Assembly (NCBI GenBank): GCA_015489295.1
Contig: WGAB01000036.1
Span: 1-5,865, forward strand
Reading direction: 5' to 3'
DNA: 5,865 nt
From: Caldifarciminota bacterium
Lineage (GTDB): Bacteria > WOR-3 > Hydrothermia > WGAB01
Of the stretch, positions 1 through 5,865 are shown in pieces. Each line of letters starts with the position of its first letter. Position 1 is the stretch's first letter. The position numbers were made by a program, and so were the translations under genes. Below the pieces are notes generated by a model, which made no database searches, had not been told where the DNA came from, and saw only the letters and a list, made by a program, of their open reading frames with translations.

Positions 1-1526
1 GCGTTATCCTCGCCCTGGCCGGCGCCCACTGGGGCCCCTTGCCTGCGGTGAAAACCGTGGCCATAGATCTTTCGGGGCCCACCCAGGGCCTGGCTCAGGA
101 GATGGCCCGCGTGGTGCCGGTCCTTCGGCAGCGGTTTCCCGAGGCCCAATGGGTGTACTTTGCCGACCGAATACTGCCCCGATACCAGCAAACCCATTTG
201 CCCACCCGGTACCGGGCCCTTTTGCAACAGCCCGCCCCCCTGATCCTGATCACCGACGGCCAGGCCACCGGCTTCCTGAACCTCACGGCCGAAAACCTCC
301 CCTGGATCGTGGTCCTTGTGGGCGACCGGCAAAGGCCCAATGTAGCAATCGAAGGTGTGGAGCCCGAGGCCCCCTATGTGCTCCAGGGGTTTCCGGTGAG
401 CCTGAAGGTCCGGCTCCGGAATTACGGCACCGAGCCTGCCCGCCGCATCCTTTCCCTGGAGGGCCGGGGCCGATCCCACCAGCAGGTCCAGCTGTCCCCG
501 GGGGCCACGGTGGAACTCCAGGTGCAGGGCCAGCCCGACGAGGAAGGGCGTCTCCGCGTGTCCCTGGCGCCCCATGACGCGTTGCCCTGCGACGATCAGC
601 AGGAGGTGGTCGTGCGGATCACCCCGGCCCTGGACCTGGCCTGGTGGGGCCAGCCCTCCCTGGTGCTCCAGGCCCTGCTGGAGCCCGAAGGGGTGCCCAG
701 GCTTTTCCGGGTGCAGCGGGTTGACCATCCCACGCCCGGGCAACTGTCGGCCTATGCCGGGGTGCTGATCCACGGGGCGCCGGCACCGGCTCCGGGCACC
801 CCTCTGGCTGCCTGGATCCGGAATCCGCCCCAGAGGATTCTAATCTTTGATACCACCGGTGCCTGGGCGCGCCTGCTGGGCGTTCCTGTGGAGGACTCGG
901 TGATGTCCCTGAAAGTGGGTACCGAGCACCTGAAGGCCCGGCCTTTCCGGGCCGGCCCTGGGATGAGGGTCCTTGTCCGGAGCGCCACCGGCCAGCCTGT
1001 GGTGGTAGAGCAGGGTAGGGTGGTACTCTTCGGTTTCCTGCCCGATCAGGCCGGAACCTGGCCCCTCACCCCTGAGTTTGTGCGATTGGTGTATCGGTTG
1101 GCGGCTCAGGGAACCACAAGGATAGAGGTGCTCAACGGCATTGCCACCGGAACCCGGGTCCGCCTGCCCCTTCCCGACGACGCGGCACCCCCCTACAGGC
1201 TGGAAGGGCCCCAGGGCACCGTTCCCCTGACGCCGATCCTCGAGGGAGGACGGCCGGTGCTGGAATTCGTGCCGTTTCTTGAAGGGTTTTACCGGGTGCT
1301 GGCCCGCAGCGATACCCTGGCCCGGGTAACCGTGGTGTGCCCTCCGGAGGAATCGGACCCTACACCGGCATCTCCTGAGGAATGGCACCGCCACCTGGGC
1401 GCTTTGGGAAAGGTCATGGGCCTCAAGGAGTTTCTGGGGCTGCGGGATCTTACACTCACCCCCTGGCTTCTCGTGGCTGCGCTGGCCTTTCTGTTTCTGG
1501 AGGCTGTGCTGCTGCGGTGGCGATAA
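1..1526 (+). CDS. BatA/vWA-like membrane-anchored protein, 5'-truncated by the window
   Basis: The frame is open from the first complete codon at position 3, so the start lies upstream; an in-frame TTG at 39 is probably internal. The visible part is 507 residues. It opens with the tail of a hydrophobic helix (VILALAG), as expected after the paired N-terminal helices of BatA-type proteins. A von Willebrand A-like domain follows (about 17-110), with AIDLSGPT in the MIDAS position and LILITDG at about 81-86. The DxSxS motif is degenerate, with Pro in place of the last Ser, so metal binding is doubtful. Residues 113-206 look like a CARDB/Ig-like beta domain ending in the DALPCDD motif common in this family. 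A mixed alpha/beta region follows, and a final membrane helix (WLLVAALAFLFLEAVLL) ends in Arg residues. Relatives often sit near MoxR and DUF58 genes, which could not be checked here. The family assignment is fairly secure; the cellular role is unknown. Confidence 0.75.
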   Translation, partial: VILALAGAHWGPLPAVKTVAIDLSGPTQGLAQEMARVVPVLRQRFPEAQWVYFADRILPRYQQTHLPTRYRALLQQPAPLILITDGQATGFLNLTAENLPWIVVLVGDRQRPNVAIEGVEPEAPYVLQGFPVSLKVRLRNYGTEPARRILSLEGRGRSHQQVQLSPGATVELQVQGQPDEEGRLRVSLAPHDALPCDDQQEVVVRITPALDLAWWGQPSLVLQALLEPEGVPRLFRVQRVDHPTPGQLSAYAGVLIHGAPAPAPGTPLAAWIRNPPQRILIFDTTGAWARLLGVPVEDSVMSLKVGTEHLKARPFRAGPGMRVLVRSATGQPVVVEQGRVVLFGFLPDQAGTWPLTPEFVRLVYRLAAQGTTRIEVLNGIATGTRVRLPLPDDAAPPYRLEGPQGTVPLTPILEGGRPVLEFVPFLEGFYRVLARSDTLARVTVVCPPEESDPTPASPEEWHRHLGALGKVMGLKEFLGLRDLTLTPWLLVAALAFLFLEAVLLRWR

Positions 1527-2385: not shown

Positions 2386-3098
2386 GGGAGGGACTGCTCC
2401 GTTTTTGGCGGTTTGGTGGGATCGTGGAGCCAAGGGATCCAGAGGTAGGGCTCGGACGGCTCAGGCGCTTCAGGGAACCGGCGATGGGCTTCCAGCGCGC
2501 AGGCCACCGCCCCTCCTAAGGCGGCCACCCAGGCATCCCGCACATGGGTACTGGAGAACCCTTGGGGCACCGAGGGGTCTACGACCAGCCCGTTTTTACG
2601 AAGGCGTTGCTGGACGGCCTGGAGAAAGCGGTGCCAGGCTGCGTCTCGCCGGGGCCGGGGGCCGTACTTGTAGGGCAACCGGCGGCCGAGGAGCCCCACA
2701 GCCACGGCCTGGGGATAGGTTTCCACGACCCACCCTCCGGTACGGCACAGGGAGCGGACCTCCGGCGGGTAGAGCCGGTATCCCCGGAGAGCCTCCAACA
2801 GGACGGTGAAATCCAGGTTCCGGAAGGGCAGGAACCCCACGCGATACCGCCGCAGAAGGCGGGCTGCCTCCCGCTCGGCGCGGCGAAAGGGACCAGATCC
2901 CTGCAGGGGTGCATCCACCAGAAGGCCGAAGTGTTCTGGCGGCCTCAGGGAGCGCAGCAGGGCCACCAGCGCCGCGTGATCGGGCACCTGCTGGCCCTCC
3001 AGGGTGTGGAGAACCGAGGTGCCAGGGCGCCAGGCCACCACAGCCACGCCGCTGGGCCGCCCGGGCGACCAGGCCAGGTCCAGGCCCACCAGGTTCAT
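2382..3098 (-). CDS. DUF429 family protein, RNase H-like fold
   Basis: The 238-residue product matches the DUF429 pattern: an N-terminal beta strand with GLDLAW (Asp7), LLVDAPLQ (Asp62) followed by a basic RRAEREAARLL helix (72-82), VVETYPQAV (Glu127), a YK pair at 143-144, and a C-terminal helix with RDAWVAALGGAVA (Asp188). The four acidic residues D7, D62, E127 and D188 are spaced like a RuvC/RNase H-type active site, which suggests nuclease-like or nucleotide-handling chemistry. That is inference, because DUF429 proteins have no settled biochemical role. The C-terminal tail (about 205-238) is rich in Pro, Glu and Trp and looks less conserved. The start ATG at 3098 overlaps the stop of the deacetylase gene as ATGA, and its own stop overlaps the DMT start in the same way, so its place mid-operon is clear. 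No Shine-Dalgarno sequence is visible, which fits coupling to the upstream gene. Confidence 0.85.
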   Translation of the reverse strand: MNLVGLDLAWSPGRPSGVAVVAWRPGTSVLHTLEGQQVPDHAALVALLRSLRPPEHFGLLVDAPLQGSGPFRRAEREAARLLRRYRVGFLPFRNLDFTVLLEALRGYRLYPPEVRSLCRTGGWVVETYPQAVAVGLLGRRLPYKYGPRPRRDAAWHRFLQAVQQRLRKNGLVVDPSVPQGFSSTHVRDAWVAALGGAVACALEAHRRFPEAPEPSEPYLWIPWLHDPTKPPKTEQSLP

Positions 3099-3895
3099 GG
3101 TTGGGTTTTCATTCGCGAGATCCAGGCCAGAAACGGCAGCCGATGCATGGCCCAGCTGCTGAGGGTGGCAAAGGCGTTGATGTATCGAAGTTTCCGGAGC
3201 TCCAGGGATCGCAGTTCAGGGTCGACCTTGGGGTGGAGGCTGAGATCGATGAGGTACACGCCCCAGCGCTGTAGCGCCAGCGGATTGCCCGGCATACCCC
3301 GGGGGCCGGCGAAGGCCACGGAAAACCCTGTCCTCTGGAGCAGGGGGAAAAGCCGGGGGTGCCAGTGGCCGAAGGGGTAGGCCAGGGCGAAGGGTGGGGT
3401 TCCCAGGAGGGTGGCAAGGACATTCCAGGAGGTCTCCAGTTCGGCCAGGACGGCGTCGTCGGGCAACCGCGTGAGGTCGCGGTGGGTATGGCCGTGGCTG
3501 CCCACGAGCCAGCCTGCCTGGTGCAGTTGGCGGAGTTCCCGGGCACCCAGGTGGCGGAACCGGACCCCAAAGGTGGCGTCCCAGGTGTTTTCGCGGCCGA
3601 TGAAGGCCGTGGGAACGAACACGGCGCCCACCCCGCCAAATTTCGCCATTTCAGGTAGGGCCACCCGGTACACGGACTCAAACCCATCGTCGAAGGTCAA
3701 ATAGGCCGTAGCGGGCAAAAAACGGCCGGTTTTTGTGAGACGCCAGTCCTGAGGGGTGGCCAGCCGGTAGCCCCAGGTGTGGAGCTGCCGCAGGTGGCGG
3801 CGGAACAGGCTGGCCGGGACCGTGTCGCCGGAAAGATGGAACCTTCCGTCCAGCCGGTGATACTGCAGGAGGAGGGGAGGGAGTTGTCGCGGCAT
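3095..3895 (-). CDS. CE4/NodB-type polysaccharide deacetylase
   Basis: This is a metal-dependent carbohydrate esterase family 4 protein of 266 residues, expected to remove acetyl groups from N-acetylated glycans such as peptidoglycan or an exopolysaccharide. The NodB motifs are clear: TFDDG at 67-71 supplies the catalytic base and metal-binding Asp, SHGHTH at 133-138 supplies the H-xxx-H metal pair (His134, His138), and AYPFG at 172-176 forms the third motif. The N-terminal PPLLLQYHRL is the usual first strand. There is no signal peptide or membrane helix, so the product seems cytoplasmic or exported by an unusual route. The later motifs are hard to place; His221 in LSLHPKVD is a candidate for motif 5. 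The first gene of a three-gene operon, it starts at the ATG at 3895. No Shine-Dalgarno sequence precedes it, and a TAGAAT hexamer lies 8 bases upstream. Family assignment is strong; substrate unknown. Confidence 0.9.
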   Translation of the reverse strand: MPRQLPPLLLQYHRLDGRFHLSGDTVPASLFRRHLRQLHTWGYRLATPQDWRLTKTGRFLPATAYLTFDDGFESVYRVALPEMAKFGGVGAVFVPTAFIGRENTWDATFGVRFRHLGARELRQLHQAGWLVGSHGHTHRDLTRLPDDAVLAELETSWNVLATLLGTPPFALAYPFGHWHPRLFPLLQRTGFSVAFAGPRGMPGNPLALQRWGVYLIDLSLHPKVDPELRSLELRKLRYINAFATLSSWAMHRLPFLAWISRMKTQP

Positions 3896-3903
3896 CGGTG
3901 GCT

Positions 3904-3909
3904 ATTCTA
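3904..3909 (-). promoter_or_regulatory. Possible -10 hexamer of the deacetylase operon
   Basis: The minus strand reads TAGAAT, matching TATAAT at 5 of 6 positions, with 8 bases between it and the ATG at 3895. That distance would give a leaderless or nearly leaderless mRNA, consistent with the absence of a Shine-Dalgarno sequence. No recognisable -35 element is seen 16-18 bases further upstream, where the sequence belongs to a degenerate hairpin repeat. The call is tentative. Confidence 0.3.
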
Positions 3910-3922
3910 ACGCCTTGGGGTA

Positions 3923-3951
3923 CTGCAGGAGCGGCCTCGGTCACGAGGCGA
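3923..3951 (+). repeat. Degenerate REP-like hairpin at the deacetylase promoter
   Basis: The segment begins CTGCAGGAGCGG, close to the head of the REP copies at 4118 and 4284, and continues into a perfect 6-bp stem GCCTCG (3934-3939), loop GTCA, CGAGGC (3944-3949), ending in GA as the true REPs do. It has GCAG rather than GTAG at the head and a different stem, so it is either a diverged copy or a related family. It sits 28 bases upstream of the deacetylase start codon. Confidence 0.45.
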
Positions 3952-3983
3952 CCCTGCCGCCGGGAGGGACTCCACCCCCACCT

Positions 3984-4017
3984 TAATCCCCCTGAGGGGG
4001 AGGAAGCCCTTAGGGCT
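3984..4017. repeat. Two adjacent palindromes, C/G-rich
   Basis: Two near-perfect odd palindromes sit 3 bases apart. TCCCCCT and AGGGGGA flank a single G (3987-4001), and AGCCCT and AGGGCT flank a single T (4005-4017). The leading 12 bases TAATCCCCCTGA recur exactly at 4402-4413, which suggests a dispersed repeat family with a full copy here and a partial copy there. No T-run follows on either strand, so an intrinsic terminator is not supported. Confidence 0.5.
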
Positions 4018-4117
4018 CAAAACCTTAGATGACGAGGCGGACCCAGGTTCCGCACGAGCGGCGCCGTAGGACACCTGGCAGTCGGACAGGAATTCACCCC
4101 CGGCGGCGATTTCCCTC

Positions 4118-4140
4118 TGTAGGAGCGGCTTCAGCCGCGA
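4118..4140 (+). repeat. REP hairpin repeat, subtype A
   Basis: This is a REP-type element with a GTAG head (4119-4122), a GA spacer, and a perfect 6-bp stem GCGGCT-TC-AGCCGC (4125-4138) closed by GA. It is identical to the copy at 4284. GTAG-headed short hairpins of this type are usually mobilised by RAYT (TnpA-REP) transposases; no such gene is in the window. With the inverted copy at 4196 it forms a pair 55 bases apart, like a BIME. Confidence 0.85.
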
Positions 4141-4167
4141 CAAAGAATCTCTACGTTTCAAGGCGCG

Positions 4168-4185
4168 CTGGAGTACGCCCTCCAG
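4168..4185. repeat. Hairpin between the first REP pair
   Basis: CTGGAG (4168-4173) and CTCCAG (4180-4185) form a perfect 6-bp inverted repeat around the loop TACGCC. It sits midway between the two REPs at 4118 and 4196, where linkers of REP pairs often carry conserved sequence, so it may be part of a larger composite element. Confidence 0.4.
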
Positions 4186-4195
4186 GAATGACCCA

Positions 4196-4218
4196 TCGCC
4201 GCTAAAGCGGCTCCTACA
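4196..4218 (-). repeat. REP hairpin repeat, subtype B
   Basis: On the minus strand this copy reads a TGTAGGAG head followed by the stem GCCGCT-TT-AGCGGC and GA. Compared with the copies at 4118 and 4284, the third base pair of the stem is switched from G-C to C-G on both sides, so pairing is preserved. It faces the copy at 4118. Confidence 0.85.
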
Positions 4219-4283
4219 AGGTCCCCGGACACCGTAGTCCCGTCCTGCAGGAACGGTAGCAGCGGTACCAGCCGCCACGCGCC

Positions 4284-4306
4284 TGTAGGAGCGGCTTCAG
4301 CCGCGA
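4284..4306 (+). repeat. REP hairpin repeat, subtype A
   Basis: Identical over 23 bases to the copy at 4118: GTAG head, then GCGGCT-TC-AGCCGC. Four further bases, TCGG, are shared in inverted orientation with the copy at 4772, giving a 27-base inverted repeat (24 of 27 identical) around the segment that contains the dif-like site. Confidence 0.85.
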
Positions 4307-4415
4307 TCGGCTCGGGCAGCTCTCAGATCAAGCGCCCCGGCCGCCCGGTGGCATCCCGCCCGCCGGGAAACACGTACGAGGCTCGCCTGCCTGCCACACC
4401 ATAATCCCCCTGAAG

Positions 4416-4435
4416 GTGCCACAAATGTGCCACAA
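4416..4435 (+). repeat. Tandem 9-base repeat with 11-bp period
   Basis: GTGCCACAA occurs twice (4416-4424 and 4427-4435), separated by AT, so the copies are one helical turn apart. A partial copy TGCCACA lies at 4392-4398. This spacing is what a protein binding side by side on one face of the helix would use. It ends 65 bases left of the dif-like site. No binding protein can be named. Confidence 0.45.
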
Positions 4436-4500
4436 CCCCGTGGCCCCCAGGAACCTGAATCAATCCTCAGCAACTTCCTCATTCTCAGCCTGTTGCCAGC

Positions 4501-4528
4501 AGTTAACATAAGGTATATTATGTTTCAC
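4501..4528 (-). other. dif: dif-like XerC/XerD recombination site
   Basis: The site is 28 bp with two 11-bp half-sites around a 6-bp centre. On the minus strand the halves are GTGAAACATAA and TTATGTTAACT around TATACC. The right half matches the E. coli XerD half-site TTATGTTAAAT at 10 of 11 positions and the B. subtilis one TTATGTAAACT at 10 of 11. The left half keeps the inner CATAA shared with E. coli. The core is a perfect 7-bp inverted repeat, AACATAA/TTATGTT. Such sites resolve chromosome dimers at the replication terminus with the tyrosine recombinases XerC and XerD and the FtsK translocase, and integrative elements or plasmids also use them. The plus-strand orientation fits almost as well, so the direction is uncertain. 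It lies in non-coding DNA, as dif usually does. A regulator operator is the main alternative. Confidence 0.7.
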
Positions 4529-4554
4529 TTCCACGAGGTGGCCTTGGGGCAGGG

Positions 4555-4570
4555 CCAGGGAACTCCCTGG
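4555..4570. repeat. 16-bp palindrome next to the dif-like site
   Basis: CCAGGGA (4555-4561) and TCCCTGG (4564-4570) form a perfect 7-bp inverted repeat around AC, 26 bases to the right of the dif-like site. It could be an operator or a short hairpin; nothing identifies a ligand or regulator, and no T-run follows it. Confidence 0.4.
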
Positions 4571-4671
4571 GGGTCAATGGGTTAGGCGTGTTGGCCTGAG
4601 AATCAGGAGCCCGAGATGGGCACTGCGTCTGCTGTACTCACTGGCCCCAAAACCCTCGATCCCGAGAGACA

Positions 4672-4720
4672 CAGCAGCAGGATCCTGTACAACCCTGAAC
4701 CCCTGTCAGGTCTGCTGCTG
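4672..4720. repeat. Long imperfect hairpin upstream of the prenyltransferase
   Basis: CAGCAGCAG (4672-4680) pairs perfectly with CTGCTGCTG (4712-4720). Inside it, CCTG (4684-4687) can pair with CAGG (4707-4710), leaving a 19-base loop. It lies about 170 bases before the UbiA-family start codon on the same strand, so it could fold in a long leader transcript if the promoter is upstream of it. No known riboswitch family is recognised. Confidence 0.35.
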
Positions 4721-4771
4721 GCAGCCCGGTGGGAACCTGACGGCCCCGCCCGAATGCTGGAGGTCGACCGA

Positions 4772-4794
4772 TCGCCGCTGAAGCGGCTCCTACG
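4772..4794 (-). repeat. REP hairpin repeat, subtype B
   Basis: On the minus strand this reads a GTAGGAG head, then GCCGCT-TC-AGCGGC and GA, with the same swapped stem base pair as the copy at 4196. It lies 95 bases upstream of the prenyltransferase start and faces the copy at 4284 across the dif-like site. Confidence 0.85.
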
Positions 4795-4889
4795 TACGGT
4801 CGGCTCCCTGGTTCGTGGCGGTCTCACCCCGACCTCCGTCGTTCTTCCCTCCGGCTCCACCCGTACCCGGTCTCCTGCACAATAGAAGC

Positions 4890-5852
4890 ATGGTTCGTCG
4901 GCTTCTGGATTACCTGTTCCTCACCCGCCCCACCCTGCTGTTCCCGGTCTGGGCGTTTCTGCTCATAGGCTTCCATAGAGGCGGTTTTCGGGGGCTCGTA
5001 GACTTCCAACCCATCCTGGCCTTCCCTCCGGCCCTTCTCGTCGGTTTTTTGGCCTATTCCCTGCTGATGGCCGCCACCTACGTGGTGAACCAGATCTTTG
5101 ACCGGGAAACCGACCGACAGAACCGAAAACTCTTCCTTCTGGCCGACGGCATCCTGCCGGTGTCCGGCGCCTGGGCCTTTACTGCCCTGCTGGTGCTGGG
5201 GTCTTTCGCCCTCCTGCTGCCGTTATGGGCCTCCCCCGGATTTCCCTGGATTCTGGGGCTGTGGGCTGCCTCCGGCCTCCTGGGCATGGCCTATAGCGTG
5301 CCGCCGCTTCGCCTGAAAGCCCGCCCCTTCTGGGACCTTCTGGCCAATGCCCTTGGCTACGGCGGCCTCAACGTGCTCTTCGGCCGGGCCCTGGCCGGGC
5401 CGGTGCCCCTTCGTGCTGGGTGGGAAACCCTGCCTTACGTCCTGGCTGTTGGGGCCGTATTTCTGTTGACCACCCTGGCCGATGTGCCCGGCGACCGGGC
5501 CACCGGGGCCCGAACCACCGGGGTAGTCCTGGGAGAACGACTTACCGCGATCCTCGCCCTGCTCCTCCTCTCCTCTGCTCTGCTCGCCGCTGGTCTCCTC
5601 GGCTGTCCCCTGGTGTTCTGGGCCGCGCTTCTCTCCTGGCCCCTCTTTCTGTGGACCCTGGGCCGCCCCCAGGATCCCCAACGGGTAACCTTCGCCTTCC
5701 GCGGCTCCGGGGCCCTCTTTGGGCTTCTGGTGGCCCTCAAGTTTCCGATTTATCTGGTGCTCGGCGCGTTGACGGTGTTTGCCATGAAACTGTATTATCG
5801 GCACCGTTTCGGCCTTTCGGACCCTTCCTTAAAGGACGAACGAACGCCATGA
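4890..5852 (+). CDS. UbiA-family membrane prenyltransferase
   Basis: This integral membrane enzyme transfers a prenyl group from a prenyl diphosphate to an acceptor such as a quinone precursor, tetrapyrrole or glycerol phosphate; the acceptor cannot be predicted. From the ATG at 4890 it has 320 residues and about nine hydrophobic helices, the usual size. The first Asp-rich motif is NQIFDRETD (Asn67, Asp71, Asp75) and the second is DVPGD (Asp198, Asp202); together they bind the Mg-diphosphate. YSVPPLRLKARPFWD (135-149) is the conserved loop between them. An in-frame ATG at 4815 would add 25 Pro-rich residues from repeat-rich DNA, so it is rejected in favour of MVRRLLDYLFLTRPTLLF, a typical family N-terminus. 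No proper Shine-Dalgarno sequence is present; a CACAAT hexamer lies 6 bases before the ATG. The stop overlaps the next gene as ATGA, suggesting an operon. Only the family assignment is firm. Confidence 0.9.
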   Translation: MVRRLLDYLFLTRPTLLFPVWAFLLIGFHRGGFRGLVDFQPILAFPPALLVGFLAYSLLMAATYVVNQIFDRETDRQNRKLFLLADGILPVSGAWAFTALLVLGSFALLLPLWASPGFPWILGLWAASGLLGMAYSVPPLRLKARPFWDLLANALGYGGLNVLFGRALAGPVPLRAGWETLPYVLAVGAVFLLTTLADVPGDRATGARTTGVVLGERLTAILALLLLSSALLAAGLLGCPLVFWAALLSWPLFLWTLGRPQDPQRVTFAFRGSGALFGLLVALKFPIYLVLGALTVFAMKLYYRHRFGLSDPSLKDERTP

Positions 5853-5865
5853 GTTACCGTACCCA
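5849..5865 (+). CDS. Start of a further gene, cut by the window edge
   Basis: An ATG at 5849 overlaps the prenyltransferase stop as ATGA and opens MSYRT before the window ends. The same overlap joins the genes of the minus-strand operon, so a real coupled start is likely. AAGGA lies 13 bases before the ATG, rather far for a normal Shine-Dalgarno sequence. Too little is visible to assign a function; a role in the same prenyl-lipid pathway would be a guess. Confidence 0.5.

Follow-up and report, generated by a model that had tools for sequence, protein, structure and literature searches.

A probable chromosomal dif site between divergent deacetylase and ubiA genes of a WOR-3 bacterium

The 28 bp at positions 4501 to 4528 of the window (the whole stretch of 5,865 bp analyzed here) are, judged by sequence comparison, very probably a chromosomal dif site, that of a WOR-3 bacterium of high GC content, situated at its replication terminus or close to it. 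We read them in this way because they form a dif-type 28-mer, because the site is conserved in relatives mostly as a single copy and in synteny, because a switch in GC skew lies nearby, and because the relatives have Xer and FtsK genes. New is the candidate dif for WOR-3; the kind of site is already well known. The accessible text of Kono 2011 (PMC3025954) describes dif predictions for 641 organisms of 16 phyla, and the term "WOR-3" has 0 occurrences in this paper; a literature search, from which subscription journals mostly fell out, returned no paper pairing "WOR-3" with "dif site" or "XerD." The window has the following features.

3 to 1526, plus strand: unnamed frame of 507 amino acids, open at the left edge of the window; hydrophobic C-terminal end; DUF7407 at 25.3 bits, below the Pfam cut-off of 28.2
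3095 to 3895, minus strand: polysaccharide deacetylase gene (PF01522), divergent left neighbor of the dif-type site; at the equivalent position in 12 of 13 relatives
4117 to 4140, plus strand: REP-like 24-mer CTGTAGGAGCGGCTTCAGCCGCGA; further copy at 4283 to 4306, inverted copies at 4196 to 4218 and about 4766 to 4793
4501 to 4528, minus strand (XerC arm to XerD arm): dif-type site of 28 bp, from the sequence match and a comparable site at the corresponding locus in 13 relatives
4501 to 4511, minus strand: XerD arm TTATGTTAACT, 10 of 11 positions as in E. coli
4512 to 4517, minus strand: central region TATACC, identical in G057
4518 to 4528, minus strand: XerC arm GTGAAACATAA, with inner CATAA and a variable outer part
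4890 to 5852, plus strand: ubiA-family prenyltransferase gene (PF01040), right neighbor of the dif-type site; at the equivalent position in 13 relatives
5849 to 5865, plus strand: first codons of an aspS-like gene, beginning MSYRT, truncated by the window end

On the minus strand, the site reads GTGAAACATAA-TATACC-TTATGTTAACT (plus strand, AGTTAACATAAGGTATATTATGTTTCAC) and has the layout of XerCD-type dif sites, that is, 28 bp made up of two 11-bp arms, partly dyad-symmetric, around a 6-bp center. The XerD arm is conserved: 10 of its 11 positions are those of E. coli. Agreement is lower in the XerC arm (6 of 11, the inner CATAA among them) and in the center (3 of 6). The original prediction had named this architecture as well as the departure of TATACC from the common TGTATA, and both were borne out by the comparison. 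E. coli dif differs from the WOR-3 site not only in its center (TGTATA) but also in the outer XerC arm and in its neighbors (the ydeT/yneL region). Over the full length, 20 (plus) and 19 (minus) of 28 positions match E. coli dif, with 15 at the next-best place in the window, and the values for H. influenzae dif are the same (20 and 19, runner-up 15). B. subtilis dif (CodV/RipX) shares the XerD arm at 10 of 11 and the center at 4 of 6 positions on the minus strand, but its XerC arm agrees at only 3 of 11, and the total is just 17 or, on the other strand, 16 of 28, with a runner-up of 15. Positions 4501 to 4528 are thus the top-scoring place in the window for all three references; the lead is clear with E. 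coli and H. influenzae and narrow with B. subtilis. The 28-mer occurs once in the window even if up to 3 mismatches are tolerated, and none of 200 shuffles matched it.

We searched 147 genomes of candidate phylum WOR-3 for the exact core CATAA-N6-TTATGTTAA and found it at 35 places in 32 genomes, whereas a reversed control pattern gave 4 matches across the same 147. Thirty of the 32, including the closest relative, G057, have a single core; the exceptions are G026 with two cores and G042 with three. In the relatives, the copy-number check that the original prediction had proposed mostly gave one copy per genome. The exact core was not found in the other 115 genomes, which may reflect incomplete assemblies or diverged sites; in G025 and G028, cores with one change were seen. 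With one mismatch allowed, 111 of 147 genomes matched, but among the matches listed the control was about equally frequent in many of them, and therefore we took the conservation counts from exact matches. TTATGTTAA and the inner CATAA were set by the search pattern. As for the remaining positions, the last two bases of the XerD arm are CT or CC in most relatives, other WOR-3 genomes repeatedly have TGTATC, TATATC, or GGTATC as the center, and the outer six bases of the XerC arm vary. The two additional cores of G042 (G042:C44:328-347 and G042:C45:56-75), both CATAATAGCCATTATGTTAA, lie near contig starts and come in addition to the main one; they may represent the Xer site of some mobile element or a duplication made in assembly.

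Short sites do arise randomly, and the frequency of one-mismatch matches near that of the control in many WOR-3 genomes would fit a chance resemblance in intergenic DNA. We consider the probability of such an accident practically negligible. In 20 Mb of simulated Markov-1 DNA modeled on the window, the two strands together gave 4 counts of CATAA-N6-TTATG, which corresponds to 2 places, the core being self-reverse-complementary, and not one core had an XerD arm matching at 10 or more of 11 positions, the criterion applied. Moreover, the exact core is found far above the control, and the site is the center of the only intergenic block that aligns well to the G057 contig. This block comprises positions 4472 to 4563 (blastn, 79.8% over 94 columns, E = 7e-17) and includes 23 identical bases, GTTAACATAAGGTATATTATGTT, at 4502 to 4524; the remaining intergenic matches to G057 cover at most 20 columns with E values of 0.03 or weaker.

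The window itself belongs to a WOR-3 lineage that is a near relative of G057 and probably of G056, as judged from the identity of its ubiA, the gene order in G057, and a REP-like repeat restricted to these two genomes. The ubiA product is 77% identical to that of G057, and the nearest named relative, candidate division WOR-3 MAG L001, has 49%. For the deacetylase, three relatives were found at 74 to 77% identity. On the minus strand left of the site lie genes for an EamA-type transporter, a DUF429 protein, and the polysaccharide deacetylase, and the G057 contig with ubiA has the same gene order (deacetylase 75%, DUF429 50%, EamA 78%); the frame at 3 to 1526 had no match on that contig. The gene following ubiA starts with MKTAYRTHTCGEL in L001 and with MKYRTHTCGEL in G057, and we read the beginning of the gene at 5849 as aspS. 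The intergenic stretch from 3896 to 4889 (994 bp) has no recognized gene; it contains short mechanical open reading frames and REP-like 24-mers only, in keeping with the noncoding, repeat-rich setting described originally. The REP-like core is TAGGAGCGGCTTCAGCCGCGA. With at most one mismatch, its 21-mer was present in 12 copies in G056 and 34 copies in G057 and absent from the other 145 of the 147 WOR-3 genomes; the exact 21-mer was not found on the dif-bearing contig of G057. Sequences of this type occur in Gammaproteobacteria. A candidate driver of such repeats, the Y1 transposase (PF01797), was found in 0 of 4 genomes including G056 and G057, and 5 of 14 control genomes matched.

In 13 of the 32 core-bearing genomes (G023, G024, and G047 to G057), the core lies directly upstream of ubiA, in the same orientation as in the window. 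The ubiA match starts 102 to 424 bases from the first dif base (390 in the window) and is always on the strand opposite to dif. A divergent deacetylase gene lies across dif from ubiA in 12 of the 13; the locus of G056, where ubiA beside dif amounts to merely 35 residues at a contig end, did not show it. Nineteen genomes have the core away from ubiA, and 16 of them were examined for neighbors (G026, G033, and G073 were left out). Neither ubiA nor the deacetylase adjoined the core in these 16, as judged by tblastn on loci of 1.7 to 3 kb, in which more distant or diverged genes would escape; at the core locus of G037, one of the 16, an aspS-like gene was found.

GC skew was followed on eight contigs of relatives and the window, and single steps were fitted on the five longest contigs. 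On the G055 contig (1,067,405 bp), with dif at 451,149, the skew was +0.094 over 400 kb to the left and −0.066 over 400 kb to the right. The best single step lay at 454,200 or 454,700, depending on the fit settings, that is, 3 to 4 kb from dif, and only 0.7% of positions were closer. The optimum is flat: a step at dif reached 98.7% and one at 513,596 reached 97.9% of the best fit. Since the cumulative skew has its maximum at 513,596 as well, 62 kb off dif, the terminus of G055 is placed to some tens of kilobases. On the shorter contigs, the best step was 3.4 kb (G047), 9.8 kb (G053), 3.0 kb (G054), and 3.6 kb (G052) from dif, but each of these contigs alone is weak evidence, because 4.5, 17.6, 6.1, and 10.6% of positions, respectively, were closer to the step; the cumulative maximum of G047 was 28 kb off dif. 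With every sequence oriented as the window and all of its available length counted (up to 400 kb per side), eight of the nine had a positive skew to the left of dif and a negative one to the right; the 16-kb contig of G024 had no sign change at dif. Within 1 to 5 kb of dif, the sign change fails on several contigs. In the window, third-position skew on the plus strand was +0.06, −0.05, +0.03, +0.24, and −0.17 by gene; the window is too short for a judgment. On five contigs of relatives, then, the proposed check for a skew switch put the best step at a distance of about 3 to 10 kb from dif, with the flat optimum of G055 and the weakness of the four shorter contigs to be kept in mind. The orientation of the site to GC skew is also that of E. 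coli dif, a minus-strand site located near 1.5908 Mb, between a skew of +0.029 at 1.30 to 1.35 Mb and one of −0.032 at 1.85 to 1.90 Mb. The flanking genes do run away from the site, as had been pointed out, but this is no counterevidence, since the strand bias of genes is weak in G055: long open reading frames, called heuristically, numbered 169 plus and 116 minus left of dif and 186 plus and 205 minus right of it.

The original prediction had left a choice between the chromosomal dif of a divergent lineage and a Xer site used by an integrative element. If positions 4501 to 4528 belonged to such an element or to a plasmid that uses the host recombinases, a center unlike that of E. coli and the presence of more than one core in G026 and G042 would be understandable, and dif-like sites of such elements do exist according to the available part of a review (PMC5357621). 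However, of the 13 relatives that have the site next to ubiA, 12 keep both gene neighbors, the exact core is single in 30 of 32 genomes, and a skew switch lies nearby in relatives. Moreover, the stretch from 3900 to 4889 has no similar DNA in a phage collection, and a search of viral contigs for deacetylase relatives gave 8 pattern matches, none of which was confirmed. Element genes next to the site and a patchy presence at the locus, the marks of a Xer-using element, were not seen; the neighbors encode the deacetylase, DUF429, EamA, and UbiA proteins. An element-borne site therefore fits poorly and is very unlikely, and the conservation, locus, and skew in WOR-3 relatives support the chromosomal dif of a divergent lineage.

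The XerD-side flank (4472 to 4500) is similar in the window, G057, and G056 (CTCATTTTCAG-like). Among 14 sequences (the window and 13 genomes), AAC is present within −30 to −25 in 10, compared with a background of 6%, and columns −28 and −7 agree in 13 each. The recurrence of AAC near −28 and T at −7 at this locus, together with the position between divergent genes, would suit a promoter or regulatory palindrome of the deacetylase and ubiA genes that resembles dif by accident, but at 16 other WOR-3 core loci (tblastn, 1.7 to 3 kb) neither gene was found, the XerD arm matches E. coli at 10 of 11 positions, and relatives show a skew switch; this explanation of the 28-mer we regard as highly improbable. 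We also considered an accessory dif site on the XerD side and did not adopt it: the motif had been picked after viewing the flanks, the genomes are related, and no fixed A at −28 was apparent by eye in genomes with dif elsewhere. The flank motif is possibly explained equally well by a promoter of the deacetylase gene.

The chromosomal dif reading calls for Xer recombinases and FtsK, and their genes were sought in the relatives. Eight of the 147 genomes were searched, and all eight had PF00589 recombinases, with two or three matches each; FtsK_SpoIIIE was above the Pfam cut-off in seven of them and below it in G023. Four Xer and two FtsK proteins were classified. G057 and G055 each have one protein above the NCBIfam XerD cut-off and a second Xer protein whose best match is XerC, just below the XerC cut-off. 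Residues 5 to 290 of the 297 residues of the XerD-type protein of G057 align to the site-specific recombinase XerD (PDB 1a0p_A) with an E value of 7e-71. The alpha, motor, and gamma domains of FtsK were found in G055 and in G057, where the gene is truncated by the contig end. Past ubiA and the aspS-like gene, some 3 kb from dif, there is a Xer gene in G052, G053, G055, and G024, and also in G054 (by open reading frame) and G023 (by position); G047, G049, and G057 have a different open reading frame there. The near-dif Xer gene of G055 (within L108, G055:C1:440001-460000) is XerD-type. According to the accessible text of Kono 2011 (PMC3025954), xerC mostly lies close to dif and xerD close to the origin, whereas the Xer gene that several WOR-3 relatives have at this distance from dif is XerD-type in G055, the one classified. 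A recombinase gene near the site, as in some WOR-3 relatives, is also a property of the single-recombinase systems difSL/XerS and difH/XerH in the part of the review at hand (PMC5357621), but each of the eight WOR-3 relatives searched has at least two Xer-type proteins; also, difSL as given there has 31 bp with a center of 11, whereas the WOR-3 site has 28 bp with a 6-bp center.

By analogy to the XerCD/dif system, in which dimeric chromosomes are resolved to monomers under the control of FtsK (review, PMC5357621, as far as accessible), a XerC-type and a XerD-type recombinase would bind the 11-bp arms of both sites on a dimeric chromosome. Septal FtsK would bring the two dif sites together, and its gamma domain would activate XerD. 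XerD would then start strand exchange at the 6-bp center and XerC would finish it, giving two chromosome monomers.

In most bacteria, dif is a housekeeping feature, and the value of the site lies elsewhere: a dif consensus for part of a candidate phylum with mostly fragmentary genomes would make the terminus locatable on contigs and the assemblies orientable. The site also points to a locus of the terminus that is retained over widely differing base compositions. Beyond this, one may speculate, although we think it unlikely, that a subset of WOR-3 has held its terminus at one junction (deacetylase/dif/ubiA/aspS, several genomes having a Xer gene some 3 kb off) while contig G+C spread out to values between about 38 and 66%, and that a further conserved element on the XerD side (AAC near −28, T at −7) perhaps aids dimer resolution or the loading of FtsK.
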